NCBI GenBank assembly: GCA_947561715.1
Contig: OX387203.1
Location: forward strand, 9,858,001-9,922,000
Reading direction: 5' to 3'
From: Ascidia mentula
Taxonomy: Eukaryota; Chordata; Ascidiacea; Phlebobranchia; Ascidiidae
Length of the DNA stretch: 64,000 nt
Shown here: piece after piece, positions 8,084-63,125 of the stretch
How the letters are laid out: each line of letters begins with the position of its first letter
Position numbering within the stretch: position 1 is the first letter of the stretch
Translations under genes and position numbers: made by a program
The notes under the pieces: model-generated
Database searches by the model: none
Seen by the model: only the letters and a program-made list of their open reading frames with translations
What the model was told of the DNA's origin: nothing

Positions 8084-8218
8084 GCTTTACTGCATATGTT
8101 TTAGCATTTATCATCAATAACATTTATCAAATAGTATAGGAGACCTTATTTTTTATGTCCTGCTATATCACTAAAAGTTTAACTGTTAATGTTATGCCAT
8201 TATAACCATAAATGTGTA

Positions 8219-8271
8219 AGCTGCATACAGATGGCCACTGTTTCGACCTATAAGGTTTTATCGATGCAGCT
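8219..8271 (-). ncRNA. Hammerhead-type ribozyme repeat, decayed core
   Basis: On the minus strand: stem I AGCTGCA pairs with TGCAGCT at the other end, GAAA is present, stem III is CAG-loop-CTG, and the cleavage triplet is GTA. Stem II survives as ACC-TTATA-GGT, but the catalytic CTGATGA is TCGATAA, so cleavage is not expected. It is the same repeat as 27895-27948. The plus-strand flank to the right (CCGAACAAACGGCCAA) is also shared, so the repeat unit is longer than the ribozyme. Confidence 0.6.
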
Positions 8272-8857
8272 GGTGTAAATATCAGACGATTTTTCCGAAC
8301 AAACGGCCAATTGGATCCAATTCGTTTATTATGACCATAATTAGTTTCAAACTTTCTCGTTATACGTCTCTCTGCTGTACGATTATTGCTCGTAGTTTCT
8401 TCGTGTCAGTTTTCTGCCAATAGAATTTGGTTTGCTCATCGCGAGACAAGTTTCTTCGTTTCCTGTTTGTTCTTTTCCAACATGTTGGTGGGTGGTATGT
8501 GGCCCCTAACCTAATAATGAGGTATCAAAAACGCATATCGTTCAGCAGACAAGTAGCCACAATACAATATAAAAGATATGAAAACAAAGTTCTGCAAATC
8601 TTGGTTTAAACACTAATCAACTTGTTGTCCCGATTCCTAACTGGGGTTGCAAAACGCTCAGTCACCAAACAAAACAAGTACAATGAGTCAGCAAAAGCAA
8701 CACAAACCGTTCTGCATTCACGTGCGAGGGTAGGGAGCTTCGCTAACTTTATTTGGTTAAGATGAAAACAAGCTCTATGTACATACGTTGTGACTAAAAC
8801 TGGAAATGAACCAGTTTCAAAACGTTTAGTGAAACGGCCGCCGTCAGACACAAATTA

Positions 8858-15800: not shown

Positions 15801-18800
15801 CAAATAACCGATTCCATTAGGTTGCTGAGTACTTATTATGTTGTTGTTGGAAGTAAATGTCTCCAGGCTGTTTTGCAATTTACAAACAGAGAAGGATTTC
15901 ATGTGACAAGCAAAGATTATGGGAGGATAATTCGCGAACTTGTCTCTGAAATGTTATCGATATAACGAAAACCTGGTCAAAGTTAACTCTTAACTACATG
16001 AATTAGAATACCAGAATACAGCATCATAAGGTGTGTAAATTAGGGTCAGAAGCATTAAGGTGCTCTGCTGTCATTCTAAGTTGCAATTGAATGACTTCGA
16101 AATCAGCAATTCTTTAATAATGCAACACCAACTTGACGCCATAAAAACGCCTTTTTAATAATTAACATGATGTAATTCGACCTCAAAGGTCGCATATGAT
16201 ATCATGTAAACCATCTTTTCGAGCAGGAAACTGAATATAAACAATGTGACATGTAGTCTGCGGGTTTCTTATATTTGCCATTGCTTTACAGACTTCCTTT
16301 GCTATTTATCAGTACTTTGTGGCCATTAATATTTAATTGCGCATTTCTTTAAAATTGTTCCAGTTTTGGTCGTTTGTGTGAATGTTTGAGAAAAGCAAGA
16401 TCCGTTCCAAGTCCTTTAAGACGGACGACGCAGCTCTAGCTACTGTATTGGCAGTAATAACAACTGACTGAGTGAGTGAGTCCACCCTGTACAGCCAGTA
16501 TTTGTCTATTTAATCGATCGTTTTAAAGAGCATTGCTGTTCAATTGTTATAAAATGAAGAGGCATTGTTTGTGGCGTGAAAGAAAGATTGATGCCTTCAA
16601 GCAAAATGAAAGAGATTGTTGCTCAAATATTTCATATTTGTTTAATGGTTTTATTGGCTCCAAACAGGCCCAGCTATTTTATGGCTCGGTCGATGTTGGT
16701 ACTGTAGATTTATTGGCAATTTGTGAGCTATCAGATGGAGCACAGTAACGCTTAATAAGCGTGGATGGGTAAAAAACGTCTTTTACAGCTTGTTTAAGCT
16801 ATGGTAAAAAACTCACCTTTTGCAGAATTTTCTGCATGAAAAAAGTTTGTTAAGGAGTATATATTACCACATGACGTCGAATGGGAGACATGGCTTAAAA
16901 TTTAACAGCCATATGCAGTCTGTTAAGACGAACCTGGCGTACATTGAACGTGATGAAACTGCAAATTTGGATAGAAAACTGTCGTTATTCACTCGGTTTT
17001 TGCTTGCACTTACATCGAGTCAAGATAACGAATTACACACAGCAACATATTGGGAAGATCAGGAGTATGTGGATCGTACCTTTATCAGAGAATATGAGAA
17101 GAAAATCAGTAGAGCGACTGAAGTTAGTGCGGGTTTGGAGTGTTGGCTACGTTTGTCTTAAAAGTCTGTTTTACCATTGTAACTTCTGGTCGTTTTTATG
17201 GCGTGTGTCCACCGTTACCAGTTTCATTATTGGGGGAATTGAGTAGTCGAAAAATGTTCACTCTTTACAGTTTGCTGATTATTATTGGCTTATTTGCTTC
17301 TACTTTTTTGTTAAATTCCAGCTTGCAACCAAGGGAAATGTGAAACAACTGGCCTCAATATGCAACATCAATCCCGACCGCATGATGGCGCGCGATCGCA
17401 AGGGAGCCACTGTTCTTCATTATGCGGCAGCAAGCGAACAGATTTCTATGATAGAATTTATTCTAGGTTTTCCTGGTGGAAACGATCGTAAGTATATTGA
17501 CATCCACAAAATTTTATAAATATTATATCACGTTAAACCAAGTATTTAAAATTGCGTAAGAAACGTGAAACCTGATTTAAAATATCACAATATTTAATAC
17601 ATGTTGTTTTTGTGTTTTTGGAATATGTAAGGGGGGCGTTCTACTTTGAAAATCCATTTATTTGGTAGCTGCATTCTCCCTTTCTTGTATACTGAATATA
17701 ATTATGATAAGCAAAGTGAAGCCAATGAATTGTGAGAGCTGCATAGCAGCAGTGGCCATCTGTATCCAGCTTACACAATTCGTAAAATTTTGTTTTGTGC
17801 TTGTAAGTATGTCAAAGTTACCAATCGATTTGTAAATTATACAACTTGTGTAGTATCGAGTGAATTACAAAGTGATTGTTGCATGGTTCTAGAATAGCGC
17901 AGCCTTGCTTGTTAAAGAGATTGGTACGCCACTAACACAACCACGCTGGATCAAAGCTACTTCAATCTGAAAATATTTCATCATTAGTACTGAATGCAAC
18001 TGACGACCTCTCCTCCACTCCACTTCACTGGGCGATCGAGAACGACAAACCGAACAGCGTGAAGTCACTTTTAACCAAAGGCGCCGATCCGACGTTGAAG
18101 AATTCAAGTGGATATCCCGCTCTACTTATTGCCGTACAAAAGAACTCCCTGAATTCGCTGCAGGCGTTGTTAGAAAAAAAGGTTCGAATTGTTACTTTTT
18201 CCAATGCCATTTATGATTTGTTGCGTGCTTGGAATACTTGTTTCAAACCAGACACAGTTAAAAACATTGGCATTTTTAGAGATTTTGCGCAATTGTAGTG
18301 TTGGTTTCTTATTCTAATTTTTACGTGTATTTTTCCGATACAAACAGATCTTTGTGATACTTTTTTTTCAAATAGTTTTTTTTTAAAACAATTTATGTCT
18401 CAATTGTTTCAAAATGCTTAAATTCTTTGTAGGTCGACGTACACGTGCGAGGCAACGCCGGCGTAACTGCGTTACATGTTGCAGCTGTAAACGACAACGC
18501 AGAAGCCTTTAAGATGTTGCTTGATACTGGTGCGAAACCTTGTATGTCCTGTACACAAGGTTATTACCCGCTACATGCTGCTGCGCTCGCTGGCTCGAGA
18601 AAGTTAGTGATATTTAAAAATTGTTATTTTTTGCATCTTGCTGCCTCTTTTTGCATCTTGCTGTAGATCGGTTCTATTGCACATTTGTATATCGCTATTT
18701 ATGACGTCATTAATAAGTATAGTGCTAATTTAAGTATCGGCCTAAAGCTAAAAGTGTTTTGATTATAACAGTGTTCCTCAAATGGAACTCCATGGGCCTT

Positions 18801-21800
18801 TCCTAAGGGTCCACAGCACTTTCTCAAACAATAGTACTCTCAGATAGGAAGTTATTTTGTGTTGGTTCAAAAAAATTTCGAAATAATTTTCGTCGGTGAT
18901 TGGGATCATAAAGTACAGAAATATCTTGGTGGTCCATTTTTTATATCTTGGTGGATCCAAATTGATTCCTGTAGTAATTTCTTGACATTTTCTCTTGCTT
19001 ATTTGTAGAATCCACAAATTCTTGTTTTGTAGAGTTATGACGTTGCTGTTGGATCACTGCCAGCAATACGGTTACGCGAGTGGAGATCTTCTTTCGTTCG
19101 GAGACAAAGAAAGTTCGAGTCCTCTCCATTGTGCGGTTACTGGTGGTAATATCGTCGCGATAAAGTTGTGTCTAGAGTAAGTAATAAACTCTATCTAAAA
19201 TATAAAAGCTGGTTGAAATTAAACCAAATCTAATTTTTCCATTTTCAAGCACACATTTTTCATATTAATCGGAATTGCTCTTCTGGCACTTAGTTTCTAA
19301 AGTGTTTATTGGAAACCAACGTTTCCTTTGCCATTCGGCGAGACTTCTTCAGGGTTATGTCAACAGTGAAGCATTACGCACATAAAACATAACCCTGAAG
19401 AAGTCTCGCCGGATGGCAGACGAAACGTTGGTTTCCAATAAACACTTTAGAAACTAAGTGCCAGAAGAGCAATTCCGATTAATTAGTATGCCTGGCAACA
19501 AAAATAGCAGTACATTTTTCATATATTTGTACGTTTGAGTTGAACATGGAAAGAAATATAACTACGTTAAAGACAGTGCACACCTGTTTAGACCTGTTGA
19601 CACCATATAGGTCAAAACAATGTGCGCACTGTCTGTAGCTCACTAATCAATATGGCTCATTTGTTTCCATGTAACTAATGCTGCTTTCTTTTGGTTATTT
19701 CACTAAAGTTTATAAAAATAAAATATCTTTGGATAATCTGATTAAAGAATAAAAAAACTGGCCCTTTGGGTAATTAATTTTTTTGTCGCTTATGAAAGTT
19801 AATGTCGGCAAATAAAAAACCTACGCATGTTTGTATAGATACGGTGCTCGCCTGGATGTGAAACAAGCTGATGACTCGACACCCATGCACATGGTTTGTG
19901 GTCAGGGCACACTTGACATCGTGAAAACCATGTTTGAAATCGCAGCTGATCAGGCGCAGGCAAGTTTGTCAATGCTCGACAAGATGGACCACTCGCCATT
20001 GCACAAGTACGAAATTTGAATGTATTCATTAACGTGTCATCTAAAATGTCTTTTTTGTAACAACATTTCCAGCATTTGTAACTTGGTTTCTGTTTTTCAT
20101 TTCTTCGTTATGCATTTTACGCAATATGATACAATAATTTGAATTGTTAATATAGTATAATAACAAATACAAACCAAAATTAATAATAAACAGGTGTAAC
20201 TGTGTTTGCTATAAATGTTTTTTTTGTCTTTTTGGTGATCATTAATGCTTACAACACTATCATCTTACAACGCAAAAGTATATCATTCTGTCGTATGGCA
20301 AGGCAGGATCACCCAACTTTCAACGCCCTTTACTTGCCGATCTCAGCTAGCGAGACCTACGTTACGTTTTCAACAGGGCTGCAATGTTCAACCATCCATC
20401 AGTGATCAAGTACCTGGTGGAGAAAGGAGCGGATCTTGAGATTTCGGATGCAGAAGATCGAACTCCTCTTCTGGTGGCTGCATCTAGGGAGTGTTGGGAG
20501 AGCGTCAGAGTTCTTATTCAACTCGGAGCGGACGTCCTCGTGAAGGTTTGTGGACGATTTTGAGAATCACCTTTATTAGCGATATTCGATAACGTAAGCA
20601 ATTTATCGGTTCACATGCTGTTTCATTTCGCATAATTTTTGTTTATTTATGTCGCATTTGGGTGCAAAATACTTTGAGTTGATTAAAAGTATGTCGTATT
20701 TCGTCATAAAACAGAAAAGTTCAGGTTTGTATGGAATTTGATTCAATAAATTTTCATGGGTTGTTAAACAACAATAATTTTTTTCCGCAATATATTTTTG
20801 TTACAAGGAGTCTTGCAGCAAAATAAATCAAATAAATACCAATCGTAACTCACCAAATAAAAGAACATTAATTTTAAAACCAGCAAATTGCTTTCATGCA
20901 GGATTCGGAGGCAAGGAACATAATGCATATCGTGATCCTTAAGGGCGGGGATATTTCAAAGATTTCATCAGATGATAAAATACAAGAAGCTTGTCGCACC
21001 ATTTTCAACGTCAGTACATCTTTCCGTGTGTTTGAAGTGTCCGTAGATTTATTTTTGTGCTTGTTACAACAAACGTTTTATGGCGTTTCTTGAAAGATGC
21101 CAAGTTCAAGGAGCCAGTGCATTAAAACTATAGAAGAAATTTCGAATAAAATTTGATGATTAAAAATTAGACTTTCTTGTTATTTACACCACAATATATT
21201 CATTTAAAGGCAACACAGACTGGTTTGAAAAGTAAAGACAAATCAGGCGTAGTAACACGTTTAATAATTGCACATGCAATATGCATGTGCGATCACCATC
21301 AAAATTACAGCCAATGGGTTTAACTTGGGTCATGAGCATTCCTATATAGGTTCAAGTTGGAACAGAACCAGCTTTACCATCCTAACGTGTGAACGTTTCT
21401 CTAGAAACCCGAAGTAAAACAGCTACTTAACGAAGCTGATTCACATGGATGCTCTCCTCTGCATTACGCCTGCCAAGAAGGAAATCTTGCGAGTCTCAAA
21501 ACTCTTATGTGTCTTGGGGTCAGCGCGCGACTAAAGTCCTGTAAAAAGCAATCTCCTTTACATTTTGCATCCATGTATGGAAGATTCAACGCCACAAGAA
21601 GGCTTTTGGACAGCGGTCAGGTAGGCCTGCCTTTATTGTTTAAGGTTTGTTGTTGAAAGCGATTTTGGTTGTAATGATATGTGTTAAAAAAGCGTATACT
21701 CAAAGAACAAAGAAAAATAACAGTCGATCACCATTAGTGTATGACCTTTCATGAAAAACAGAAATATCAATTAATGTATTGACAGCTCCTGTCTGAATAG

Positions 21801-24800
21801 GATGCTGATCTTCTGTTACCCATTTTTGAGTTCCTGCATATACAGAAACATGAAAGTCAGATCCGACACTGACCTGCAAAGGCTGATTCCTGTAGTCCTT
21901 ACGACTATTTTTCTATTAATAAAACGTTTAGATTTTCCGCAGTCGCAACACTTCAGACTTAAGATAAAATTTTCGTTTTAGCGGTTTCCCCTCCTGTGTA
22001 ATCTTCCCCGAGGTTTTTGCACTTTTTTTCTTTCGGCAATTCATTGAACATGTTGCGTGGCTTTTATCAACATTTCTAATACCTCAATTCGGGAAAAAAG
22101 GCCCCTAATCATAACAGTAACGTTGACTTGTAACAAGTCTATGGTTTACTATCTATTTTCTGCGACGTTGACCCAGTACGCTTTGCTAAAGCAACTTTTT
22201 GGACACGAAATGAGGGCAATGTTACGTAAAGTGTTGAGAAATTATTTAAAGCAACAAAATTACTGTGAAAACCGCAACCAAGTACGATATACGTATATAG
22301 CTCGTACTTTGTGTGTATACTACTGTTACTAAAAGGAAATTCATCGCCAGGTTATGGTTTGCAGTTGTGGTTTTATATCCACAAACTTAGCACTAGAATT
22401 TGCCATACTTAGTAATTCCTTCTGTTGACACATATTGTTCGAGATTGGAAAAGTAGATGAAAAGTACATAAGCTTAGTGAGCTGCATTGTTGTCACATTT
22501 GCTTGTGTATAAGTTTACATGTCTTTTAGAGCAACATGATCCCTTATTTAAGTTAACAATTTGCAGGGACCGAACATTATTAATGAGAAGGACGAAGATG
22601 GAATGACTCCCCTGCATTTTGCTGCTAAAAACGGCCATGTTAAAGTACTGCAGCTTTTACTTAATAGGTAAAATTTTCTCATATTTTTAGTTCCGTTCAA
22701 GTTTGCGTGGGCGAAACAAAATCGATAACGTTGCAAACACCATTACCTCATTATAAACATTACATGTCCGTCGATAATATACCTGTGTTTGTACATCATT
22801 AGGGGCGCAATTCTGCATCGCAACATCCACGGCGAATCCCCACTGCATGTGGCGGCCTCCAGTGGATACACGAAGACTATTCGCACACTGATTGAAACGC
22901 ACAATCATCTTATCGACCAGTTCGAAGCTGAGGGGGTTGGTAACAGCGCATTTATCTCGCTTCACGTTTCCAGCTAGTCTCGCTTAGCTTGCATGTAATG
23001 TCATAGTACCAAGCAACCTTATGAGAAAATTATTCTATTTTTAGAAAATCGAGATTTTGTGTAAGAATATATAAGCAATAATATGTTTAAATAAAGCTGC
23101 ATACAGCTGAGCCACAGTTTCGGCCTGCTGGGCTTCACTGCAACCTTGCCGTATCTATACGACGTTAGCATGTTTGCCGTGGCAAGATGGCCGTATAGTT
23201 ACCACAAAGCTGCACTGATTGGACCTAAAAGATCGAAACAGTGGCCCTGTGTGTAGATCGCGTAAAATTTATCATGTGTCTTTCTTAGGTGTAATTTGAT
23301 AGAATAAGTATTTGTTTCTTTATAATTCAAATAGTTTTTGCTATAACTTGAATAAAATATTTCTGACTCCTTTCAAAATCTTGTGTCATTTATTATATTG
23401 GATTTATCAAACTAAACTTTTTCTGCTAATGACAGAACACTGCCCTGCACCTTGCCGCGAAAAACGGCCACGTGAGTGCGGTAGAGGTGCTAATGGATTT
23501 AGATGCAACATTTCTTCGTAACAACAAGGGAGCTACTTGCTTTACTGAGGCCATTGTCAACCAAAACAGGGACGTTGCCATGGCAATAGTACAGGTACGA
23601 TTCCAATATTGGACAAGTAAGTTATGACAAGGCGTATACGCATATATGCGATGCATAATATCTGCATTGCATAATATCTGCATTCAAATATCGTAACAAA
23701 ATACATGTTGTGTATATTTTACGTAGGAGTTAACGTTGAGCTTAGCTTTTGTTTGCTTTTATACTTTTTTGGGCACAGAATCGGACGATGCCATTACGGC
23801 GAAATTAATATTTCTGTGAAATTTTAAATAAACGTCTATCACTCTTTGTAAGTTATTTCGATACATGACAATATAAACAGATCCGTCAGTACCACCTAGC
23901 AAGTAGACTGATTCATGTTGTCCGAATGACATTTTCTCCATTTATGATTTTTTACATATTTCCAAATGCGTTTGCCCTGTTAGCAATGGTTTAAGTTTTC
24001 TTCGTGAAACATAATCCAAAAATTTCTTTGCATGCAGCACAGCCGCTGGGAGGAAGCAATGAGCACATTTTACGAACACCAGGGACAGATTATGATTCCC
24101 ATCATGCTGTTAATCCAATACTTACCAGACGTGTGCGTGGTAAGTCACGTGATGTTGGGTTTTCCCCGGTATAATAGGGTTACTTTAGGTCATTTTTGTT
24201 TTCCATTTTTTCAGGCGTTGCTCAACAGATGCAAAGAGACGGCTGATGTGGATGCAAGAAGCCGAAAGTACTGGATTCGATACCACTTTAAGGTAACAAT
24301 TATACTTGTGTTATAATTGATGCTATATTGGTCTAGATATAAGCCAGTGTAATAGAAGATATAGGTTCAAAAACAGTATGAAGGACGCCAATAGAAATTT
24401 TAACCTCGTGAATGAAAATGTTTTAATTGCACGAAAATCGAAACCTGAACAGCAACACTTCTAACGTGACACAAGTGAAACTTCAAAGTCAATTTCAAAT
24501 TATTGAATAAGAACGGTTTATGCTTGAAAAAGCGAAATATGTATTCTTAAAATAGAAGCATTGACACAACGTTATTATAGTAATATTTGAAATTAATAGT
24601 TGAGAACAATCCACGGTACACCTTACAGCAGAAAGATATCCACATTTTGTTAAATTTTAATTACAAAACACATTCATATGATGATAATCAACAATTGTTT
24701 TTAATGCCACTATTGCAAACCCGTCGAGTCTATATTCAAACACTAAACAATTTCCTACAAACACGATTTCTATTTTACTAACCCAAAATGTATCAAAAAG

Positions 24801-27800
24801 TATTTGGAGCCAACGGTGGAAAAAAGGCAAGAATTGTGGAAACACGCGGATGAGTTGAAACGTCAACGCGAGAAGAGCAAAGACGATGATGATGATGACA
24901 CACAGGAACTTGGAAGGCTTGCTCTACCCGCATTAAACGTAAGACTAGTTGTTTTAGCCGCGTATCATTCTTTCAGCATAATGAGCCGATATTTTGCATA
25001 TATTATTACTGATGCTGTCAGGCATGTGTTATTGCTGCAGTACGACTCTTCTGGCAATTTGTTATATCGACGTTTCGGCCACCATGCAGCAGCCTTCATC
25101 AGGATGTGAAAATACTTCTTTAAATAAATTACATGCTGTTGAAGGCTGTAGCTTGGTGGCCGAAACGTCGGTACAATAAAATTATTGCCAGAAGATCTGT
25201 ATTCCATTATTTAACATGATGATGTAGTTCAAAGGGTTTGACAAAATGGTTGTTACTGTTTTTGAAAAAACATCTGTAGTTGTTATTGTTTGCAGAAAAT
25301 GGTGGAATTCAATCGAGTGGAATGCTTGCGCCACCCAGTGTCTGTGCAGTACTTGCGCCAGAAATGGTAAGTTGTACAAATAGCTGTTCTGAAACCGTGG
25401 CAGTGATTACCAAGCATGGAATTAGTTTATGGTTTATTGACATTCATTTTTTACCTATTTTGTTGACAAAGACCTTTACCAAACTTAATGCTTCCTTCGA
25501 AATTGTTTTATGCAATTTGTACTTTGCAATCAAAGTACCATGGGAAAACATTCTCCAAAACAAGCTATTTGGCGATGAAACATTTTTTTTTTTATTTTCA
25601 GGGGAGCGTATGGTCGTCTGTTCCACGGTATTAACCTGCTCTTTTACTTAATGAGCCTCTTTCCAATCACATACATAGTGAGCACGGTACCTACGAGAGG
25701 GCATTGGGAGAACCACAATAGCTTGTACAGCGAGTAAGTATCCCAATATTCATAATTATAGTTATCAATTAAACAGTTGATGAAACAAGCAAAAAGGTTT
25801 GTATTACTGGTGTATTGGATGACAACGTAATACGCATGGCTTTTTTGCTTGCAAGGTTGAGTAAAGGGCATAATGACATTCATTCTTAGCCAAATGGCTT
25901 GAACATTCTGTTTCATTAATGCACATGTTATGAGAAATAAACGTTTCATCCATACATTTTGGGTGATCATTTACTGACATTTTTACTTTTTTTAACAGCG
26001 TCAATGGCACAATGGTTAAAGATCAACCGATGTCATACAGCGGGTTCCAAATCGCTATGATGGTTCTATCAACAATTCTGAATTGTGGGCAAATCATCAA
26101 AGAAATTGTCCAGATATATCAGCAGGTTTGTGCGTTTAGCTACAGCAATAAGTCTGCGATGATGTTGTCAGCGTTTTAAAGCAGGTTCGTCCAAACTTAT
26201 TGGGCCAAAGGGCACATGCGGTTTGCAAACGATTTTCAGAGCAACGTGACGGGGCAATTATATTCTTGTTTTCACAACCCGTTGTTACCGAAACGGACGA
26301 AATAATCAGACCACCGCAGTTTCCAGCCGTTGTAGTTGATGTTTTACTGCACTACATTGTTCATTTCGAAATCTCTCTGGCCAAGGGCCGGATACCCCTG
26401 ATTTAAAGCATTGAAAATGCATTTATAGGATTTCTGTTAAAAATTTGTAGGCCGGTTTTGAAATCTTATACTCCTATTTAACCAAACTGAACATTGAGAA
26501 CTGCAAACAGGGTGTACATACTGTTTCGTACTGTCTTTCTACAATTCTCAATGATTATTATGGCTTTTTTGTACATTTAATCAATCGTTTGTGTTTAGCG
26601 TTTTGCTTACCTTGGGGACTTCACAAATTTGATGGAATGGACGTTGTACATAACAAGTGTGTTGTATGTTGTACCTTTTCTCACTGGTTATCCGGTCCAC
26701 TGGCAGTTCGAAGTGGGAGCAATTGCAATTTTTCTTGCTTGGTTCAATCTCCTCATATTTCTTCAAAAGTGAGCAATCTAATGTTTTTGTTTCTTGAAGG
26801 AAAATCCACGCAAACAGTTTGAGATGTAAGACGACTGACAAACGACAAATGACTAACTTATATGTATATGAAATTATATGAAAGCATAAGCGATAAAAAA
26901 ATCCCATGCAATTCTATAACGATTCTATCTTGCAGGATTCCAGAAATGTAACAAATCTTTATGGTTTTTTGGTGCCCTGTACCTAATGCAAATTTCATTG
27001 GCAGGCAAATACAACATACAAGTATAAAGTGTACAAAGTGTTAGCATTTTCATGAAAAATCCATTTACAATAAAATCAAAAGCCGTAACCGATCAACAAT
27101 AAAATGCACTAAAATTGCATTTAACTGAACTGTAAACAACATCCTTTTAAAGACACTAAGTCATACCAACATTTTGATGGCCAGATTAAACAACGCAATG
27201 GACCGGATTTGGCCAATACCTGTGTAAAATTTTTCCAGACTTCTTTATTTCGGTTTGTTCGCTTGTGCAGGTTCGACATTGCTGGAATTTACGTTGTAAT
27301 GTTCCTTCAAATTCTTCAAACCCTGGTGCAAGTGATTCTCGTGTTTTCGTTTCTCATCGTCGCGTTTGCACTTTCCTTCTACGTTCTCATGCAAGAGGAG
27401 GTAAAAGTGAAACAATTTGCTATAAAATTACGTACTTTTTGGTACTCCAATATAAACTACAGTAGCAGTATTACGAATTCAATGACTTGAAGAAATGTTT
27501 TAAGCAAAAAAGTTTGAAACTTTTAAATGTTAAGTTCAATTTGGTTGCCTATTTTGCATTGTAGCCTAAAATCAGTGTTGTTTTTTTTTCTGAGATGTTT
27601 ACTGTCATTCAAGAGCAATATCTTGAAAAATAAAAATATGCTTATTTCTAAGAAACGTGTTTTTCGATTTTCTTGCTTAGTTTTTATTTTTTTTTGTTAC
27701 AACGGGATTTGAACCCAGGATATCCTGGCCACGAATCCCAACCAGGTTTTCTTCTTGATATATGGGTCGGGCGCTTGGCCAATGCTGCCAATCACCCGCC

Positions 27801-30800
27801 CTTGCTTACTTTTTATCAGTTATATGTCGCAGTGTAATAGACGTTTGCGCCCCATGTGCCCAACAAAAGTTCTTTAAATAAAATAAACTCAGTGAGCTGC
27901 AGACAGATGGCCACTGTTTGGACCTATAAGGTCTCATCAGTGCAGCTTGGTGTGACTCTTAGCCGACTTTGCCGACCAAACGGCCAAGCAATGACTTCCA
28001 CTCTATGTGACTATACAATCACCGTCATCCGTTGAGCACTAAACTAGGTGCATCCACATGCAGAAAGCAAGGTGGAAACTCCAAGCAAACCTAAACCTTT
28101 AGTGCCGTCAGGTTTTTTTGAATATTTCCTACAACTATTCTTATATTTTTAGACCGACAGAGCATTCAAAGACCCGCCTCTTGCTATGCTTCGAATTTCA
28201 ACAATGCTCTTGGGAGAAATTGGCTACGTGGAAAAATTCCTCACTCCGTTTGTTGATGATGATCCCGCAACTTTTCACTTCGGAATTCCAAGCTTGATCC
28301 TCCTCCTGGTCTTCATCCTGATGATGCCGATTCTCCTCATGAATCTCCTCATCGGTTTAGCGGTCGGAGACATCGCACAAGTGCAAAATAACGCCGTCCT
28401 TCAGCGTCTGGCTATGCAGGTTTGTCCAACAGTGCGATATTTTTTAGAAAGACCAATCATTTTCGGATTCCCCAGTCCCCAGTCCCCAGTCCCCAGTCCC
28501 CAGTCCCCAGTCCCCAGTCCCCAGTCCCCAGTCCCCAGTCCCCAGTCCCCAGTCCCCAGTCCCCAGTCCCCAGTCCCCAGTCCCCAGTCCCCAGTCCCCA
28601 GTCCCCAGTCCCCAGTCCCCAGTCCCCAGTCCCCAGTCCCCAGTCCCCAGTCCCCAGTCCCCAGTCCCCAGTCCCCAGTCCCCAGTCCCCAGTCCCCAGC
28701 ATTGCCGTAGTGTCGCTTATGCTCTCAACAAATATTAACTTAATCCGTTACTGACGATGTCAGGCATAATCTTAATTAAAAAGGCATTTCTTATGCCAGG
28801 CTATTAACTCGTTAACTTATGTTGTTTTCAATTTAAAAGGATTACTCAGTATAAGACGGTATGGTACTTCGAACCGAAATGTATATTTGTACAAAGAAAA
28901 TGGTGAATCATTTATAAACGTGCTTTTTGAGGAGAAATTTCAATTAAATTGCGACTGTTCTTTCACAAGCATGCCAATAACACGTGCACCGTCCGCTTAA
29001 CGTAAACCTTAGTTGCCTAATATTGCTGCAGTTGCCGTTCAGTACAGACAGAAGCCTTTCAAAATGGCTATATTTGAGTATATGCAAAGCAAAGTAATTT
29101 ATGTTTATTATTACTTCAGGTTCAACTCCACACATCGATCGAGACGAGACTTCCCATTCAATTCCTGATGAGAGTTGACAAACCATCGGTGACACTTTAT
29201 CCGAACCGCTGCGGGCATTGGCACAAACGTGTATGGCATGCGGTATGTAAGATTACTTTTTATTGCAAATAATAAAAAAGCTTGGTCCTCAGCGTGTATT
29301 TTTTTGCATTAAGTGATTACTTGGACTGAACTAGATTATTGCACAATCATCCAAGATACTGGTTTACAGAATATACATATTTCGCCTATACGGCATTTTT
29401 TGTATTACTTGCGTTTGGATAACACGAGATTGCAAATCGTCACAATGTTAGCAAGAGTAATATTTCATGCAATGGCATGATTGGCAGGATCGCCCCACTG
29501 CGCAGGTCCTTGCTTGGCGATCACAGCTATCGTATCGATTTTTTCAAATCTTGCTCCGACTTGTCAGGAAAAATGGCTGATCCAGCTAGGCTGCAATGCC
29601 TGGGCTGCCAAGCCTATAAACCTAATGTTAGCAAGTTGTCATTCCAAACGTAAGATAAGGCGCTTGTATGTTGTGAAAATTTCTTATTTCCTATGTCTGT
29701 TTGTGCCTAGACTGAAATATGTAGAAAAAATGTGTCCAGCTTCTTTGGTATGGCACAACCCGGCTATTCAACTAATGCTGTGCGCAGGTTTTCCAATACA
29801 CCGGCATCCAAGCTGACTACGGTGACAACGCAGAAGGTGGAAGCGATCCAAGCATCCAATACATGCAAGTTGAAATGCAAAGGCAGAAGCAAAGGTGGGT
29901 ATAGGGCTATATAAAAGACCAATGGTAAATAACAAAAACAACTAATAAAAAGAAAAAGTTGCAATTTTAAATGTTAAGAATGTGTTATTGACTGTACAAT
30001 CAAAATACGCAGTTTTGACAGGTTTATTGTACATCTGTGTTTACATTAACGTTTCAACACATGGAACTTGTGTGGAAGCAATATTTTGCAATTCGATGAA
30101 ATTTGCCCGCGAAATGTTTTTTCAATGCTTTGCCGTTTTTCGTGCAAAAGGCGAGATTCTCGAGGAATTGGTTAATTATAACTATGAGATGCCAAGGCCC
30201 TTCCGCTTTCGCCAACATCACACACGAAAAAACGTCAAAAAGGAATCCTTGTAACGAAATTTAAAACGCCCTGTCGTCAACGGCTTCTAAAATTAACCTT
30301 TTCGGCCCGGAGGTCGCTTATTAAAGTGCGTAATTACCAGTGGTCTTAACTCGTAAGCCTTGGTATGTCGTGTGAAACGAGCGTTTGGCGCTTGTCCTGT
30401 TTGCCCTTTCACGAACGCGTCTGTTGGTTCCAATACGGGATAGGTTTATACAAGACAGGACGTCATAGACCAAACTTACGGTACATTGCTGGTATTTGGC
30501 AAGGTTGTGTGTCGCGTATTCGAGGCTGATAAGCAACATCGTGCTGTAAAATGAACCGCTTTTTATACAAACTTGATTGAAAACAACGTTATCGTTTGAG
30601 TTTCATGGAAATTTTTTATCCCTTCTGGGAAATTTTTTCGGCATTTTGGGAAAGATTCATACACGTTTTTACTTGAATTGGCCAGCACAATTTTATTAAC
30701 CTGTATGGCTACTCTTAATATTTGCGGAATGCACATAAACATCGCACCGAAGTTCATGCGAGGAAAAATCTACTGGTAAAATAGACGGAATATTTTCATA

Positions 30801-41500: not shown

Positions 41501-43426
41501 GTGCCAGTTGCTAAAACCGACATTCCAAAGACAGCCGTCATCACCCCCTTTGGTTTATTTGAGCCTTTTGGATTAAAGAACGCTGCTCAAGCTTTTCAAA
41601 GACTTATGGATTCTGTTTGTCAATCATTGGATTTTACCTTTGTTTACCTAGATGATATACTGGTTGCGAGTTCCTCGTTAAAGGTTCACCGCACACATCT
41701 CAAACAACTATTTCAACGACTTGCAGACAATGGCCTTGTCCTTAACGTGAATAAATGCGTTTTCGGAAAAACGCAAATTGATTTTCTGGGACATCGAATT
41801 GATTGCAACGGAGCTCAGCCACTTCCTGACAAAGTTTCAGAAATAATAATTAAAAACTTTCATTTGTAGTTTGATCACACATGAATCATCACAAAATTGT
41901 TGTAAATATCATAAAAAATGAGGAAATTTTTCAGAAATGAGGAAATGCAGAAGTAGTACCATATGCTGGGAGCTTGATTTTTCAGGTCTCGCTTCGGAAA
42001 AATAGGCTGATTGGCTGCGAAGCCTGTGAAAATTATGATCGTCTCTAAGAGCATTTTTAGGACATTCTTATAATTTTCGGCATAGAGCGTTAAAGAAGAC
42101 ATATGCATTTAGGCTCCACCGGGGCAGAATGGTCTACATAGGTCAGATGGTCGCAAAGGGAATAAAGGAGATTCGGTTTCAAGATCAATCATCACAAACC
42201 TTAAACGTGAGAAATCTTGACGTGAAAACTTCGTTGAAATCAAACCTTTTTTGTTTTATTCAGGTCGTGTAAGAAACCTGGAGTTGGGTAAGTCGTAAAG
42301 AAATTGCATGATGGCAATTCTTACCATTGTTTGTGGACAGAAATTGCATAAAAAACATTTTGAAAAACATGTATATCTAAGCCTTGCATTAAGGACCAAA
42401 TGCATTTACTAAGCATACAAAAAATGCACACATTTTTTTCTGCATGTGGGAAGTAATCTTTTAAAAAATCTCACGATCGATGCGAATAATTAGACAGACA
42501 AAGAGAAAATTTTACAGATGAGCATTGGACTGGAAGTTTTACTGCAACAAACGGATATCGCTACAAGATCGTAACTCACAGACCTGGCTACGAACATGGG
42601 AGATTGAAATGCTTAAACATGGGTGGACGGGTTGCTTCCGTTGGAATGAGAATTGAGCCTGTCTACAGGTTTCTACTTGTAAAATAACGTAAACATTCAT
42701 TGAACATGCTGACGGTAGTGAACAATATTTCGACCTAATATATACGTCGTCAGTGCATCTGGTGACTGTGGCACTGGATTAGCCGGTAAACCAGCCACGG
42801 ACAGATTCTTACACTTTGTGGTGGTGTACGATCCGTTCCTCATAACTAGGTGGTGAATAACAGAGACGAACTAAGTGAAGGGCACAATGGCTAAACTAAA
42901 CTATACTTGTGAAAAAAAACATAATATATCGGCGAGCTGCAGACAGTGTGTGTACACGCACTGTTTTTGACCTGTAAACTATGTTTGGCAAACAGTAATG
43001 CTAAAGGATCGGGTGTAATCCAAATCATATAAACAAACATTAAATTTCAATAAACAGTAAGTCTTATATAATTGGCGACTCGATATTAAAATAAAAGGCG
43101 ATATTTTCCGCGTTAAATAAATTTGTTATCAAGAAGATAAAAAAATAAAACCCTTTAAAAGGAAATAAAAATAACTCATCGTTCATTTTAGGAGTGTGAT
43201 TGCCCACTACGGGAGTCAACTTGACTTTACGGCCATTGGTCTAACTGACATCATAACTGAAGGAAGTTTTGTGTGGGAGGATGGGATTCCACTTCTAGGA
43301 TTTACAAACTGGTATAGAGGTGAACCGAACAGTCAAGGAAATGAAGATTGTGTTATTCTGGATGATAACGCATGGCATGATTATGGTTGTTCACTTATTT
43401 CTAAGACTCTTTGTGAACTTGTGTAG
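38546..43426 (+). CDS. Collectin-like C-type lectin, copy A
   Basis: Exons 38546-38626, 42113-42206, 42264-42287, 42518-42668 and 43192-43426 agree in phase (194 codons). Exon 1 encodes a signal peptide ([17 protein letters not shown]). Exon 2 is a short collagen region ([15 protein letters not shown]) in which two expected glycines are changed. Exon 3 adds a short heptad-like neck (RRVRNLE). Exons 4-5 form the C-type lectin domain ([25 protein letters not shown] at the sugar/Ca site; [13 protein letters not shown]) with the four conserved cysteines. EPN predicts mannose-type binding; the usual WND Ca ligand triplet reads WHD. Compared with copy C, the N-terminal Cys region and first collagen stretch are deleted in frame. 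Intron 1 holds a 2.7-kb Gypsy fossil. It would be a secreted immune lectin acting through trimers. Whether this reduced copy still trimerises is uncertain. Confidence 0.8.
39195..41944 (+). mobile_element. Ty3/Gypsy LTR retrotransposon fossil in intron 1 of collectin A
   Basis: Absent from the matching introns of units B and C, so inserted after duplication. A candidate 5' LTR (about 39826-39977, TGTAGC...CCACA) is followed by a primer-site-like TGGTGACCCCGAG, a gag region (about 40020-40560), a protease region around 40740-41000 and a reverse-transcriptase region (about 41100-41865) with the YxDD-box motif. RNase H, integrase and a 3' LTR are not seen, so it is a 3'-truncated copy. It is broken, with a few interruptions. 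The first 600 bases of the inserted segment are unassigned. Confidence 0.8.
41965..42035 (+). mobile_element. SINE body in intron 1 of collectin A
   Basis: GGGAGCTTGATTTTTCAGGTC through GCTGCGAAGCCTGTGAA matches the body at 1396-1495. It is shared with units B and C, so the insertion predates the duplication. Confidence 0.65.
42705..42973 (-). ncRNA. Pair of hammerhead-type motifs in intron 4 of collectin A
   Basis: On the minus strand, 42759-42705 reads GATGCA, CTGACGA (position 7 of the core is freely variable), a weak stem II ending GGTC, GAAA, and a CCGTC cleavage triplet with GCAT complementary to the left flank. On the same strand, 42973-42935 is a second 3' half: GGTC, an A-rich core remnant, stem III CAGTG/CACTG, triplet GTC and TGCAGCTC. 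The spacing of about 210 bases in the same orientation resembles a dimeric retrozyme. Stem III of the first motif is short, so activity is doubtful. Confidence 0.45.
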
Positions 43427-47230: not shown

Positions 47231-49407
47231 ATGTCGAAAGTTTTTGGGATTCTGATAATCGCAATCTTTCTACAAGCAGCATCACCTCAAAGTCACAACT
47301 CTGCGCCAATGGTGAGTTTGAACAAAAGTTGACTTAATCTTTTCAAAACGCAAATCCGAAAACTATCTGTACATTCTCGTCCCGAGCTTGTTTGAGGTTT
47401 GAGCAAAGGTTCTATTTGCAACCACCAACAGCAGACCCGGTAGCGCACCGCAGATCTACAACAACAAGGAACAGGCCGTGGTTTGTTACTCAAACGGATT
47501 TATGCCCATCACCAATGTTCACCCCGTTAGGAAAATATTAGCAGCGTCAGCATTGTGAATAGTTTTGTGCAGTCGTTACCTAGTGTCGCGCCGAATACGG
47601 AAGTGTGCGCTATATTTGGTTAAGGCTGATTCCCACTGGCTAACGATACGACAACAATTGGGAAATACCCGCGCCTCGCCCGATTTCGCAAACCGTCTCT
47701 GATACGACGCTGTGACGGCGCATGCACACTGGTACGATTGTACGTTGCGCAAGTGCTTCGGTGTATTTTATATGTAGTTCCAGTAAAGTTAAAAGTTCGC
47801 GTGCAAACCTTCTTCAAAGCATCTGGTTTATAGAGAAATAATTGATAGAGCTCCAAAACCACAATGTTGCTGCATTCAAAATACCTTAGACATACAAATT
47901 CTACATCGTCTCTAAGACAATGCAGAAGTAGTACCATATGCTGGGAGCTTGATTTTTCAGGTCTCGCTTCGGAAAAATGGGCTGATTGGCTGCGAAGCCT
48001 GTGAACCTTATGATCGTCTCTAAGAGCATTTTTTAGGACATTCTCATAATTTTCGGCATAGAGCGTTAAAGAAGACATATGCATTTAGGGTCCACCGTGG
48101 CAGAATGGTCGACATGGGTCAGATGGTCGCAAAGGGAATAAAGGAGATTCGGTTTCAAGATCAATCATCGCAAACCTTATACGTGAGAAATCTTGACGTG
48201 AAAACTTCGTTGAAATCAAACCTTTTTTGTTTTATTCAGGTCGTATAAGAAACCTGGAGTCGGGTAAGTCGTAAAGAAGTTGCATGATGGCAATTCTTAC
48301 CATTGTTTGTGGACAGAAATTGCATAAAAAAACATTTTGAAAAACATGAATATCAAAGCCTAGCATTAAGGACCAAATGCATTTACTAAGCATACAAAAA
48401 AGCACACATTTTTTTCTGCATGTGGAAAGATAATCTTTTAAAAAATCTCACGATCGATGCGAATAATTAGGCAGACAAAGAGAAAATTTTACAGATGAGC
48501 ATTGGACTGGAAGTTTTACTGCAACAAACGGATATCGCTACAAGATCGTAACTCACAGACCTGGCTACGAACATGGGAGATTGAAATGCTTAAAAATGGG
48601 TGGACGGGTTGCTTCCGTTGGGATGAGAAATGAGGATGCCTGCAGGTTTCTTCTTGTGAAATAACGTTAACATTCATTGAACTGCTGACGGTAGCAATAT
48701 TTCGACCTAATATATACGTCGTCAGTGCATCTGGTGACTGTGGCACTGGATTAGCTGGTAAACCAGCCACGGACAGATTCTTACACTTTGTGGTGGTGTA
48801 CGATCCGTTCCTCATAACTAGGTGGTGAATAACAGAGACGAACTAAGTGAAGGGCACAATGGCTAAACTAAACTATACTTGCGCAAAAAAACATAATATA
48901 TTGGCGAGCTGCAGACAGTGTGTGTACACGCACTGTTTTCGACCTGTAAACTATGTTTTGCAAACAATAATGCTAAAGGATCGGGTGTCACCAAAATCAT
49001 ATAAACAAACATTAAATTTTAATAAACAGTAAGTCTTATATAATTGGCGATTCGATATTAAAATAAAAGGCGATATTTTCCGCATTAAATAAATTTGTTA
49101 TCAAGAAGCTAAAAAAATAAAACCATTTAAAAGTAAATAAAAATAACTCATCGTTCATTTTAGGAGTGTGATTGCCCACTACGGGAGTCAACTTGACTTT
49201 ACGGCCATTGGTCTAACTGACGTCATAAATGAAGGAAGTTTTGTGTGGGAGGATGGGATTCCACTTAGTCTAGGATGGACAAACTGGTATAGAGGTGAAC
49301 CGAACAGTCAAGGAAATGAAGATTGTGTTATTCTGGATGATAACGCTTGGCATGAATATGGTTGTTCACTTATTTCTAAGACTCTTTGTGAACTTGCGTC
49401 GTTGTAA
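47231..49407 (+). CDS. Collectin-like C-type lectin, copy B
   Basis: Exons 47231-47311, 48089-48182, 48240-48263, 48495-48645 and 49164-49407 agree in phase (197 codons). It has the same signal peptide as copy A and shares the in-frame deletion that joins QSHNSA directly to PM, removing the N-terminal cysteines and first collagen segment. The collagen stretch is [20 protein letters not shown], with Trp for one glycine. The lectin domain keeps [22 protein letters not shown] and [19 protein letters not shown] predicts mannose specificity, and WHE replaces WND. An extra cysteine (NEDACR) appears at the end of exon 4, which could alter disulphides or be a decay mark. It is expected to be a secreted sugar-binding protein, and less likely than copy C to form regular collagen trimers. 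Confidence 0.8.
47918..48011 (+). mobile_element. SINE copy with target duplication, collectin B intron 1
   Basis: A SINE body is flanked by ATCGTCTCTAAG on both sides (about 47906-47917 and 48012-48023), a 12-bp target duplication. The same flanks are visible in unit C. Confidence 0.65.
48683..48945 (-). ncRNA. Pair of hammerhead-type motifs in intron 4 of collectin B
   Basis: This is the counterpart of 42705-42973. The distal half at 48906-48945 keeps GGTCGAAAA, stem III CAGTG/CACTG, triplet GTC and TGCAGCTC on the minus strand. The proximal motif keeps CTGACGA, GGTCGAAA and CCGTC. Confidence 0.4.
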
Positions 49408-54756: not shown

Positions 54757-56942
54757 ATGTCGAAAATTTTCGGGATTCTGATAATCGCAATCTTTCTACA
54801 AGCAGCATCATCTCAAAGTCACAACTCTGCGCGAATCTGCCGCATTCCAACAGTTTGTGACGAACCTTACTCTACTGAATGGAGGGAGGTTAGTCTTGAT
54901 GGAATGAAAGGCGATAAAGGATTGCCAGGAAAGAGGGTAAGAAAATGGTTTCAACAACGAAAAAACCTCCTTGAAAAATTTCGTTGTATTTCGCAGTATG
55001 TCAAGAGAAAAAACGTGTGTTTACACAAAAACGAATGTGATATCGAATAACTTTTTAAATCGTTTTTGGAGCAAACCAACATTCTTTTATCGTTTAGGGA
55101 CCAATGGGACCCATGGGAGCTAACGGAGCCTTGGGGCCAATGGTGAGTTTGAACCAAAGTTGACTTAATCTTTTCAAAACGCAAGTACAAAAATTATCTG
55201 TTCATTCTCGTCCCGAGCACGTCTGAGTTAAAAAACGTTCCTTTTGCAACCACCAAAAGCAGAAGCGCACATCCACAATAACAAGGAACAGACCGTGGTT
55301 TGTTACACAAACGGATTACGTTAGCAGCGTCAGCATTGTAAACGGTTTTGTGCATTCGTTACCTAGTGTCGCGCCAAATACGGAAGTGTGCGCTATATTT
55401 AGTTACCGCTGTCGGAATAACGGCCACATGCGATCCCATATCGCCAAGCAACAGCGTTTCACAAATATGGGCAACACTACCTTGGACATACAAATTTTAT
55501 ATCGTCTCTAAGCTAATGCAGAAGTATTACCCCCTCATCGGAAGCTTGAGCTTGATTTTTCAGGTCTTTTTTTTGGCTGCAATGCCTTGGCTGCGAAGCC
55601 TGTGAACCTTATGGTCGTCTCTAAGAGCAATTTTTTAGGACATTCTTACAATTTTCGTTCATAGAGCGTTAGAGTATGTCATATGCATTTAGGGTCCACC
55701 GGGGCAGAATGGTCGCAAAGGGAATAAAGGAGATTCGGTTTCAAGATCAACCATCGCAAAACTTGAACGTGAGAAATCTTGACGTGAAAACTTGGTTGAA
55801 ATCAAACCTTTTTTTGTTTTATTCAGGTCGTATAAGAAACCTGGAGTTCGGTAAGTCGCAAACAATGTAAATTGTACCTAAGCAGTTGCATGTTGAAAAT
55901 TTTACCGTCATTTCTGGGCAAAAATTGCATAAAAAAACGTTTGGCAGCATGTATATTAAAACCTAAAATTAAGGACCACATGCGTTTAAATAATAATACA
56001 AACACAATTTTTTTGTTACACAATTATTGCATGTGGGAAGAAAAACTTTTAAATGTTTCATCGAAAAATTCTCAAGCTCGATAAACAAAGGCAAAAAAAT
56101 AAACAAAATTTCACAGATGATGGAAGTTTTACTGCAACAAACGGATATCGCTACAAACTCGTATTTCACGCCCCTGGCTACAGACATGGGAAATTGAAAT
56201 GCTTGAATATGGGTGGACGGGTTGCTTTCGTTGGAATAAGAAATGAGACTGTCTACAGGTTTATTTTTGTGAATTGACGTAAAAATTCATTGAACTGCAT
56301 GCAGACGGTAGTGAACAATGTTTCGACCTATTTTATACATCTCGTCAGTGCAACTGGTGACTGTGCAGCTTGTAAACTAGCCACGGACAAATTCTTACAC
56401 TTTGTGGTGGTGTACGATCCATTCTTATAACTACGTGGTTAGTAACAGAGACGAACTATGTGGAGGACACAATGGCTAAACTAAACTATATTTTGCAAGC
56501 AATAATGCTAAAGGATCGGGTGTCACCCAAATCATATAAACAAACATTAAATTTCAATAAACAGTAAGTCTTATATAATTAGCGACTCGATATTAAAATA
56601 AAAGGCGATATTTTCCGCATTAAATAAATTTGCTATTAAAAACCTAAAAAAATATAACTCTTAAAAAGGAAATAAAAATAACTCATCGTTCATTTTAGGA
56701 GTGTGATTGCCCACTACGGGAGTCAACTTGACTATACGGCCATTGGTCTGACTGACATCATAACTGAAGGAAGTTTTGTGTGGGAGGATGGGGTTGCAGT
56801 TAGTCAAGGATGGACAAACTGGTATAGAGGTGAACCGAACAGTCAAGGAATTGAAGATTGTGTTATTCTGGATGATAACGCTTGGCATGATTTCAGTTGT
56901 TCACATATTAATAAGAGTCTTTGCGAAATTGCACCGGCGTAA
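54757..56942 (+). CDS. Collectin (mannose-binding-lectin-like), full-length copy C
   Basis: Six exons (54757-54936, 55098-55142, 55693-55768, 55827-55850, 56117-56258, 56699-56942) agree in phase and give 236 codons, near the size of vertebrate MBL. Signal peptide ([17 protein letters not shown]), then an N-terminal Cys segment (ICRIPTVCDE) that in collectins links subunits. Collagen Gly-X-Y follows over three exons ([41 protein letters not shown]), then a neck (KLERRIRNLE). The C-type lectin domain has [55 protein letters not shown] and LCEIAPA. This lines up directly with vertebrate MBL (ITDEVTEGQF, EPNDHGSGEDC, LWNDISC, AVCEFPA). EPN predicts mannose-type binding. WHD for WND replaces one Ca ligand and is shared by all copies. 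Role: secreted pattern recognition, possibly with lectin-pathway proteases. This is the best candidate for a functional gene of the three. Confidence 0.9.
55525..55611 (+). mobile_element. SINE copy in collectin C
   Basis: Flanked by TCGTCTCTAAG on the left (about 55509) and right (about 55614), with the body GAGCTTGATTTTTCAGGTC...GCTGCGAAGCCTGTGAA. It has an internal deletion relative to unit B. It lies in the intron before the third coding exon. Confidence 0.6.
56295..56355 (-). ncRNA. Hammerhead-type motif in collectin C intron
   Basis: Minus strand: GTTGCA, CTGACGA, a weak stem II ending GGTC, GAAAC, then CCGTC and TGCATGCAG, whose TGCA pairs with the left flank. The second, distal half seen in units A and B is deleted here. 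Confidence 0.45.
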
Positions 56943-61454: not shown

Positions 61455-61782
61455 TGTTACATATTTTGATCGTGACTCCTTACCGCCTCTACCGACCGCT
61501 AATATGTTATCTATGACCGCTTCTGGGTGTGGTGATCTGAGACTATGTATGTGTGATAGTAACGCGAAGGAGCCGTTGTGTAAAGGGCTTATTTGTTTTG
61601 GCCGTTTTCACGATTTTGATACATGCCCTAATGGTTTTAAACAGGTCCTATGAGCCTTGAGAAAGTTAAACCTTACAAGGGCGTGCACGCCAGGACCTGC
61701 ACTAGTAGTTGAGATAGAAAAAAAAATGGAATTTTCAATTACCCTATTCCGCGTTTTGAGCAAAGTTTAAACCTGTTTTTTT

Positions 61783-61885
61783 TTGTTTTTTTTTTTACTA
61801 CAACGGGATTTGAATCAAGAAGGTCCTGAGCACGAATCCCGACCAGGTTTTCTTCTTCTCCTTGGTATATAGGTCGGGCGCTTAA
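61783..61885 (-). mobile_element. tRNA-derived SINE inside the Gypsy fossil leader
   Basis: Minus strand: AAGCGCCCGACCTATATACC, AAAACCTGGTCGGGATTCGT, then a B box GATTCAAATCCCG and an oligo-A tail. It is the same family as 27690-27805. Confidence 0.65.
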
Positions 61886-63125
61886 CGAACAATCTATGAA
61901 GGTTTTTGAAAGCTTTTGCGCCAGTGTTAATGCAAATGAGGCAACCAAGCGCTGCGCGTTTTTGTCATACTTGCCGGAGGACCTTGCAATCGAGTGCAGA
62001 GATACGGACGACTCTGCCTCGCGCAATAACGTAAAACAACTCCTTCTGCAGCAATTTTCAGCTGCCAGAAGAGACTATCAAGAAGTTTGTTATGAAACTC
62101 TGCAAGTTTGGACAAAAATCATACCCTAAAGAAGAGCAAAATGCCATTTTAAACGAAATACTGTACATGATTTTAACGCGCGGTCTGCAAAACCTGTCTT
62201 TAGCGAACAAGATTTCAAATTCATCCGTTTCTGAAGACAATCCGTCCTTCCAACAAGCCAGTAGAGTGGCAATTAACAGCGCTGACACTTCAACTGAGGG
62301 TACTCAGGGGCAAGACATCTTTGCTATGGCACCTTCCAAAGCGCCAAACCTCAAACTAAGTTCCTTACTAGAGCAAATTCCCATTACACTAGCCAATCTT
62401 ACTGGCAGGCATGACAACCATGTTGGATTTTCCGGGCAAGCGTCCTTAACCATTAAGTGCTTCAAATCATCTGTACCTTGTGGAAATCGTCCCGGTTGAA
62501 CTTCGCCGTTAGCAGTTTGCAACTCATGCATTGTTAACTATAATGAAACGGAACCCATGAAAAGGGTAGAGATCTACCGTGGAAACAGAAGGACCCTAAA
62601 AGTTGGAAAGAATCTCTCTCGTCAGTTTGTGCCACCTATACCGCCACTCGTCACGAAGAAACTGAAATTTCCCCACATCAATTACTGACTGACCGAGAAC
62701 TTGGGTTGCAAGCTGATCTGTCTTCAAACTGATCCAGGAGTCGTATTGAACTGCAGAGGAAAAAGATGAAGCCACGCTATGAAAAAATGTTTGTGTAAGT
62801 ATTGTCACCAAAAATGTCTTGGTATATATTATCACCTTACTTTCCGCACTTACGACACGACACAGTGTAGTGTTCTTCAAGGAGTTGTTTTGGCGCACCA
62901 AATGTTGACAAGTAGTTTTGGTTGTTTCTTGGTTTGGGGGATTGAAGTTTTTTGTCTAATTTATGGAGTGTGGACACTTCTTTCGCAGAGGGGGGAGTAT
63001 GTTACATATTATTATTATTATTATCTCCTTACCGCCTCTAGCGTCCGCTAAAACGTTATCTATATGACCGCTTCTGGGTGTGGTGACCTGAGACTATGTG
63101 TTTGTAGCAGTAACGTTGAGGACTC

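Follow-up and report, generated by a model that had tools for sequence, protein, structure and literature searches.

On the minus strand at positions 27895-27948 of a 64,000-bp stretch of the genome of the ascidian Ascidia mentula (contig OX387203.1, C71:9858001-9922000 in our numbering; this whole stretch is hereafter the window) lies a motif resembling a hammerhead ribozyme, which raises the question of whether it is one and of what has spread it through the genome. Along that strand we find helix I, CTGATGA, helix II with a TTATA loop, CAAA, CAG-loop-CTG, TC and helix I again, that is, the motif reported by the first-pass annotation of the window, one core letter off (CAAA for GAAA). The most probable answer, to which we give roughly four chances in five, is that it belongs to a family of retrozymes without long terminal repeats (non-LTR retrozymes), moved in trans by Penelope-like elements (PLEs), with cleavage and RNA circles predicted. 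The copy itself is described by two features:

27894..27948, minus strand: type I hammerhead of subfamily A, core letter CAAA for GAAA (covariance model, E=8.5e-20)
27895..28112, minus strand: 5'-truncated retrozyme copy (unit 69 to 285, then 1 to 7), no target-site duplication found (sequence comparison)

The hammerhead family and its unit

That the host is an ascidian tunicate agrees with the mitochondrial COX1 of contig C79, whose frame is free of stops when translated with the ascidian code and then has glycine, at sites in conserved stretches, in place of the serine of table 5. The 196-Mb assembly (79 contigs) was searched with an intact-core pattern, CTGATGA-N8..24-GAAACAG-N4..14-CTGT, and with the same pattern read backwards as a control. 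There were 1046 forward and 1041 reverse matches (2087) against 1 and 0 for the control, an enrichment that rules out chance. An intact type I hammerhead had been put forward as the family sequence, with genome-wide enrichment as a way of checking it, and these numbers bear out both. The pattern itself fixes CTGATGA, GAAACAG and CTGT, so that helix III is largely preset, and helices I and II were checked in 25 of the 2087 matching copies. Over the pattern matches and the 25-copy alignment the core runs CUGANGA ... GAAA ... UH in the correct order with helix I open, and the helices of the 25 copies measure 7 bp (I), 4 bp (II) and 4 bp (III). Standard pairs fill 94.7% of 375 cells (helix I 93.7%, helix II 91.0%, helix III 100%), and 20-35% when the partners are slid. 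Subfamilies differ in altered loops on helices II and III around the same core, the core being preset by the pattern, and for one subfamily-B sequence the minimum-energy fold is the hammerhead. In its anatomy the motif is a type I hammerhead, and catalysis is predicted for it.

A number of results weigh against a working ribozyme. Shuffles of the 3' letters pair equally well (94.6%; 290 of 500 as high), because the alignment columns hardly vary, and for covariation in helices I and II the 25 near-invariant copies hold one two-sided pair change, which 194 of 500 shuffles match or better. In subfamily A the hammerhead reaches -15.1 kcal/mol against -17.4 kcal/mol for the minimum-energy fold, the competitor, with a CACUG/CAGUG helix, being 2.3 kcal/mol lower. 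Folding z-scores of the ribozymes are weak (-1.05 to -1.55, with -1.55 for subfamily A; the fragment from locus L066 was folded without the 3' strand of helix I), and helix I, by eye, consists of 7 unbroken pairs with no internal loop for a loop-loop contact. The Rfam hammerhead models gave no match above the gathering score in the window, at five loci and in five PLE flanks (loci with L-numbers are the best matches and the first places of one contig, a non-random sample). Below that score RF00008 and RF03152 matched at L061, L064 and L066 (E 0.18-3.1), no Rfam hammerhead was found in the window, at L077, at the PLE locus L082 or in the five PLE flanks, and RF00163 had no match genome-wide, which is uninformative, its control genomes giving none either. 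The reading as a motif paired by chance, or as a satellite repeat that does not act as a ribozyme, would agree with the Rfam scores, with the z-scores and with a family covariation that is uninformative. It is nevertheless extremely improbable in view of the 2087 matches against 1, of several subfamilies that keep the (preset) core under altered loops, and of insertions with target-site duplications (TSDs) in place of satellite blocks. The chances we give to this and the following alternatives are not exclusive of the retrozyme reading.

A type III identity was also considered and rejected; the RF00008 alignments in L061 start 25 nt upstream of the core, and we read them as an effect of the shared core. 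The idea that a palindromic helix III marks a dimeric ribozyme was dropped as well: of 500 shuffled loops, 75 fold at least as stably as subfamily A, 27 as B, 22 as E and 123 as D, which would point weakly to a palindromic loop in B and E and does not support one in A and D. Of the five loop types examined, four retain the letters CAGUG, and the competing CACUG/CAGUG helix occurs in subfamilies A and B. On these folding models it could act as a switch protecting circles against cleavage, or it could reflect common descent.

The first-pass annotation had taken the motif for part of a mobile unit such as a retrozyme, with sequence shared outside the ribozyme, and it was right in kind. Sequence comparison finds the flanks shared between copies, and the hammerhead sits at a fixed place in a repeat, sometimes tandem, of 285 bp (L061) or, in a second subfamily, 295 bp (L066), with one type I hammerhead in each. 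Tandem copies, which it had advised looking for, are present at L061 as six units in succession at a spacing of 285-286 bp, accompanied by a 148-nt inverted stub with 100% complementarity. Among the first 100 hammerhead places listed, neighbours up to 1.2 kb apart make 9 inverted pairs and 7 same-strand ones, the L061 array accounting for 5 of the latter; pairs being so few, the copies are mostly single and dispersed and the tandem form is a minority. The two units have a G+C content of 0.474 and 0.471 (below 50%, not below 45%), and the 285-nt unit as RNA is more stable than its shuffles (z=-2.66; 4 of 200 fold equally well).

Retrozyme bodies are 5'-truncated at many positions. Bodies starting at the cleavage site were tried as a sign of cleaved templates and are not supported: the starts are scattered, and thus ribozyme-cut templates are not shown by them. 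One distinct subfamily-B insertion, present as L065 and L066, which are copies of one another, does begin at nt 1, and in the L036/L038 group the body resumes at nt 3. Loci L044-L047 and L051 (C1:1.21-1.66 Mb) are one insertion with the same TSD recurring in a local multicopy segment, L053 and L054 being decayed, and this insertion therefore seems to have been multiplied by segmental duplication. At L063 (C1:1923000-1928000) two retrozyme copies stand 2810 bp apart in similar surroundings with tRNA-like sequence between them, and a near-identical spacing recurs at C1:1953760 and 1956572.

Insertion anatomy and the mover

What the first-pass annotation did not notice is the way in which these units are inserted, with an inverted stub, a TSD and unequal ends. 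A shortened inverted copy lies at the 5' end of the insertion and the 3' ends of the hammerheads face outwards. All 9 inverted pairs among the 100 places mentioned above diverge, as do all 6 in a table of the best 40 of 1109 candidates. The set used for TSDs consists of 64 clusters (9 clusters shorter than 60 bp and 18 duplicates, by a 50-nt key, were excluded); 33 of them have arms on both strands, and 33 of these 33 diverge head to head. Exact direct repeats of 12-14 bp stand at the ends of 15 clusters (10 distinct insertions), against 19 of 2000 mismatched pairings. The ends were measured in every distinct insertion with a TSD of at least 12 bp except the single-armed L050, with L047 representing the L044 group and L036 representing L038; L068 had been removed from the TSD set by the duplicate key and its end lengths were measured afterwards. 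In the ten two-armed insertions, chosen for their TSD, counted in unit positions beyond the cleavage site, the end of one arm lies at nt 7-19 and that of the second at nt 41-58 in nine and at nt 28 in one (the L044 group), these being BLAST ends that may fall short where copies diverge. The difference between the two end lengths is 23-33 bp in nine of the ten and 316 bp in L020, because L020 holds an extra unit. The predicted cleavage site lies about 41-58 nt before the 3' end of the element.

Part of the copies speak against this anatomy as a general rule: 31 of the 64 clusters are on a single strand, without an inverted arm, 49 have no end repeat of 12 bp or more, and L050 has a 12-bp TSD without an inverted stub. 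Clusters without such a repeat are presumably older or truncated copies. At first sight the inverted arms, outward ends and TSDs resemble a DNA transposon or a miniature inverted-repeat transposable element with a hammerhead-like motif present by accident in its terminal inverted repeats and a transposase as its mover. Equal and exact termini were not found, however; the ends are unequal in the way just given and vary between copies, bodies are truncated at many points, units occur in tandem, and the 31 one-strand clusters do not fit either, all of which makes transposase movement very unlikely.

The PLEs of the same genome offer a closer comparison. With the best 150 of 382 GIY-YIG candidates scored, there are at least 121 matches, in open frames of up to 892 codons; the 892-codon frame carries RVT_1 and GIY-YIG, and neighbouring matches there are 2870 bp apart. 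Among these places 23 neighbouring pairs lie within 6 kb, 17 of them inverted and all 17 diverging. Both ends were fetched for eight PLE insertions, six of which have a TSD of 12-13 bp and, in those six, one end longer by 27-44 bp. All eight contain a minimal hammerhead, and of 10 additional regions lying downstream of GIY-YIG matches 8 do so too. Five of these hammerheads, arranged by hand, have 22/22 standard pairs in helix I and 23/23 in helix II (G-U included) with differing sequences. These PLE hammerheads have a helix III without a hairpin and an extra base before helix II.

TSD lengths and end asymmetry agree between retrozymes and PLEs of one genome, and a PLE protein moving retrozyme RNA in trans is the simplest account of this matching anatomy. 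Some results tell against it. Two of the eight PLE insertions have no TSD, and the PLE TSD count has no null of its own; neither unit has a sequence match to the sampled PLE flanks of five families (at E<=0.5 and, in a second comparison, at E<=1), the only match being at L098, itself a retrozyme copy near a PLE. As no sequence is shared with the sampled flanks, we name no partner PLE.

This last result bears also on a variant compatible with PLE movement, in which the unit would be the leftover pseudo-LTR of an autonomous PLE, an internal-deletion derivative still moved by PLEs. The same insertion anatomy and a hammerhead near the 3' end speak for it, and a remnant in the window shows that bodiless PLE copies arise:

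19266..19511, no strand assigned: PLE remnant of 246 bp, made of two ends that each bear a hammerhead and stand head to head (L095 and L097 match both arms)
19253..19265, plus strand: left copy of the 13-bp TSD of this remnant, ACATTTTTCATAT
19512..19524, plus strand: right copy of the same TSD, ACATTTTTCATAT

The units fail to match the flanks of the five sampled families, L098 excepted, and a looped helix III of 4 bp stands against the hairpin-less helix III and extra base of the PLE hammerheads, and we therefore hold such a derivation to be rather unlikely. The remnant also contains a sub-threshold Rfam match to mir-3747 (19335-19414, E=1.1e-4), inside the hairpin that the remnant's two inverted hammerhead ends form, and hence probably no microRNA; the four papers naming mir-3747 deal, to judge by their titles, with the honeybee.

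Another candidate mover is the machinery of long interspersed nuclear elements (LINEs), in which case the likeness to PLE insertions would be coincidental. LINEs too show 5' truncation, TSDs longer than 10 bp and 5' ends inverted by twin priming, all of which counts in their favour. They have been considered possible movers of retrozymes (PMC7229834). On the other side stand the diverging pairs, 9 of 9 in retrozymes and 17 of 17 in PLEs; the two kinds of element also agree in TSD length and resemble each other in how unequal their ends are. As a LINE-type control we used the neighbours among the best 150 of 243 Exo_endo_phos matches. None of the 6 pairs up to 6 kb apart is inverted, and up to 10 kb apart there is a single inverted pair among 28, a converging one. 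This control covers one domain only, which counts against our preference for PLEs, and it is weak because the endonuclease domain sits towards the 5' side of LINE frames, where inverted stubs could escape it. We consider LINE movement unlikely.

Under PLE movement, transcripts of the unit would be cut by their hammerhead and perhaps circularised. A PLE protein, with its reverse transcriptase and GIY-YIG endonuclease, would nick both target strands about 12-13 nt apart, and each nicked strand would prime reverse transcription of a retrozyme RNA, with one start near nt 41-58 and the opposite one near nt 7-19, until the two cDNAs met head to head; long or circular templates would yield tandem units. 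Tentatively, and at somewhat less than even odds, we suggest that retrozymes and PLEs share this two-sided target-primed reverse transcription, that both nicked strands use hammerhead RNA as their template, with synthesis beginning at two points some 30 nt from each other and shortly past the cleavage site, and that each insertion therefore starts out as an inverted dimer.

Copies in the window and their surroundings

For the window we used a covariance model built from 25 genomic copies, none of them from the window, and run with filters off. The first-pass annotation had listed five loci, of which four are strong (E<=2e-6) and the one at 17737 is weak (E=0.057, helix II lost). Its observation that each copy is damaged differently holds well: eight window copies were aligned to the model, none is intact in core and helices, and the lesions differ from copy to copy. 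Beyond its list the model finds a hammerhead at 56292-56356 on the minus strand (E=1.4e-5) and gives a further match at 19589-19641 on the plus strand (E=0.01). By itself CTGATGA shows no enrichment over the window (9 observed, 6.7 expected), and a longer hammerhead motif is found twice against 0.01 expected. A fuzzy motif scan with up to 3 mismatches gave overlapping weak matches on both strands, which were left uncounted. The remaining copies and fragments are the following:

8213..8310, minus strand: retrozyme remnant with a hammerhead at 8218-8272, damaged core (E=9.6e-17)
17698..17777, no strand assigned: an inverted and a forward arm fused together, with helix II gone (weak model match at 17736-17772, plus strand, E=0.057)
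19589..19641, plus strand: subfamily-B-like hammerhead, damaged, close to the PLE remnant (E=0.01)
23094..23146, minus strand: hammerhead, inverted arm of the same pair as 23207..23259, damaged core (E=2e-6)
23207..23259, plus strand: hammerhead, forward arm of the inverted pair, damaged core (E=1.2e-10)
26492..26581, no strand assigned: decayed subfamily-B inverted pair (minus arm E=0.29)
42747..42977, minus strand: subfamily-B-like remnant, fragmented, weak copy (unit comparison)
48719..49002, minus strand: subfamily-B-like remnant, fragmented, weak copy (E=0.4)
56292..56356, minus strand: hammerhead with CTGANGA and GAAA kept, helix II damaged (E=1.4e-5)
56449..56537, minus strand: subfamily-B unit fragment near the hammerhead at 56292-56356, perhaps part of one insertion with it (unit comparison)

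Immediately upstream of an open segment at 28153-28500, and in antisense orientation to it, lies the copy at 27.9 kb; the segment has an Ion_trans match just below the cut-off (24.2 of 25 bits, E=2.2e-5), and on the other side of the hammerhead copy, the segment 27125-27487 matched no Pfam family. It is possible that the copy is intronic to a channel gene. About 120 bp away from it there is also a dispersed repeat of about 100 bp with tRNA-like letters, present at 27681-27777, 61780-61883 and 63125-63222 (81-88% alike), which has no match to the retrozyme units.

Comparison with known elements

The metazoan non-LTR retrozymes, as described in the main text of their report, are the closest relatives in kind: the ascidian family shares with them a type I hammerhead, a unit within 170-400 nt, a G+C content below 50% (0.47 here), tandem copies, TSDs longer than 4 bp and PLEs with minimal hammerheads alongside (PMC7229834). 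Tandem repeats are what that main text describes, and the word "inverted" is absent from it, whereas here 33 of 64 clusters are head to head; expression and circles are demonstrated there, whereas the ascidian family is known from sequence alone (PMC7229834). The newt and salamander satellite hammerhead repeats treated in the same report likewise have a short repeat and a type I hammerhead, but helix III is longer here (4 bp), the copies are dispersed, and the amphibian palindromic helix III loop is at best weakly supported (PMC7229834). Plant LTR retrozymes are non-autonomous and hammerhead-bearing as well; by their published descriptions they differ in having type III ribozymes, LTRs, a primer-binding site and a 4-bp TSD, against type I and TSDs of 12-14 bp here (PMC7229834; PMC7761336).

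With PLEs, as far as the two sources consulted describe them, the family shares a head-to-head inverted partial copy, a short TSD, a tail at one end, tandem copies and a hammerhead near the 3' end (PMC3846280; PMC11167929). Some rotifer Penelope families are described with direct and inverted pseudo-LTRs head to head and TSDs of 8-10 bp, shorter than the 12-14 bp found here, and in one example the inverted pseudo-LTR is 37 bp shorter and there is a 31-bp tail; other rotifer families have direct pseudo-LTRs only, or no TSD (PMC3846280). PLE protein is reported to cleave and extend both target strands and to start reverse transcription inside the template (PMC11167929). A unit of 285-295 bp is, however, too short for the reverse transcriptase and GIY-YIG of an 892-codon frame, and its helix III of 4 bp is looped, unlike that of the PLE hammerheads. 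Judged on such sequence features, the retrozyme unit inserts like a PLE but is not a PLE.

The mover of animal retrozymes, PLE or LINE, has so far been deduced from coexistence, tandem copies and shared ribozymes, by the account in PMC7229834, and PLEs have already been proposed as possible movers (PMC7229834; PMC8969392); our partial literature search found no published comparison of retrozyme and PLE insertion ends. Direct structural evidence on this point comes from the insertion anatomy that retrozymes and PLEs of a single genome have in common, and the same test is applicable to every genome. Retrozymes are also extended to an ascidian, by a family of about 2,000 intact-core sites; for tunicates, nine type I loci are described in Didemnum vexillum in the source consulted (PMC8704543). 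If both strands do prime on hammerhead RNA, an inverted-dimer copy, with one sense and one antisense hammerhead, could not yield RNA circles alone, and only the rare tandem arrays could serve as source loci. The mover of animal retrozymes would then be fixed, and the inverted ends and tails of PLEs would be explained by one mechanism.

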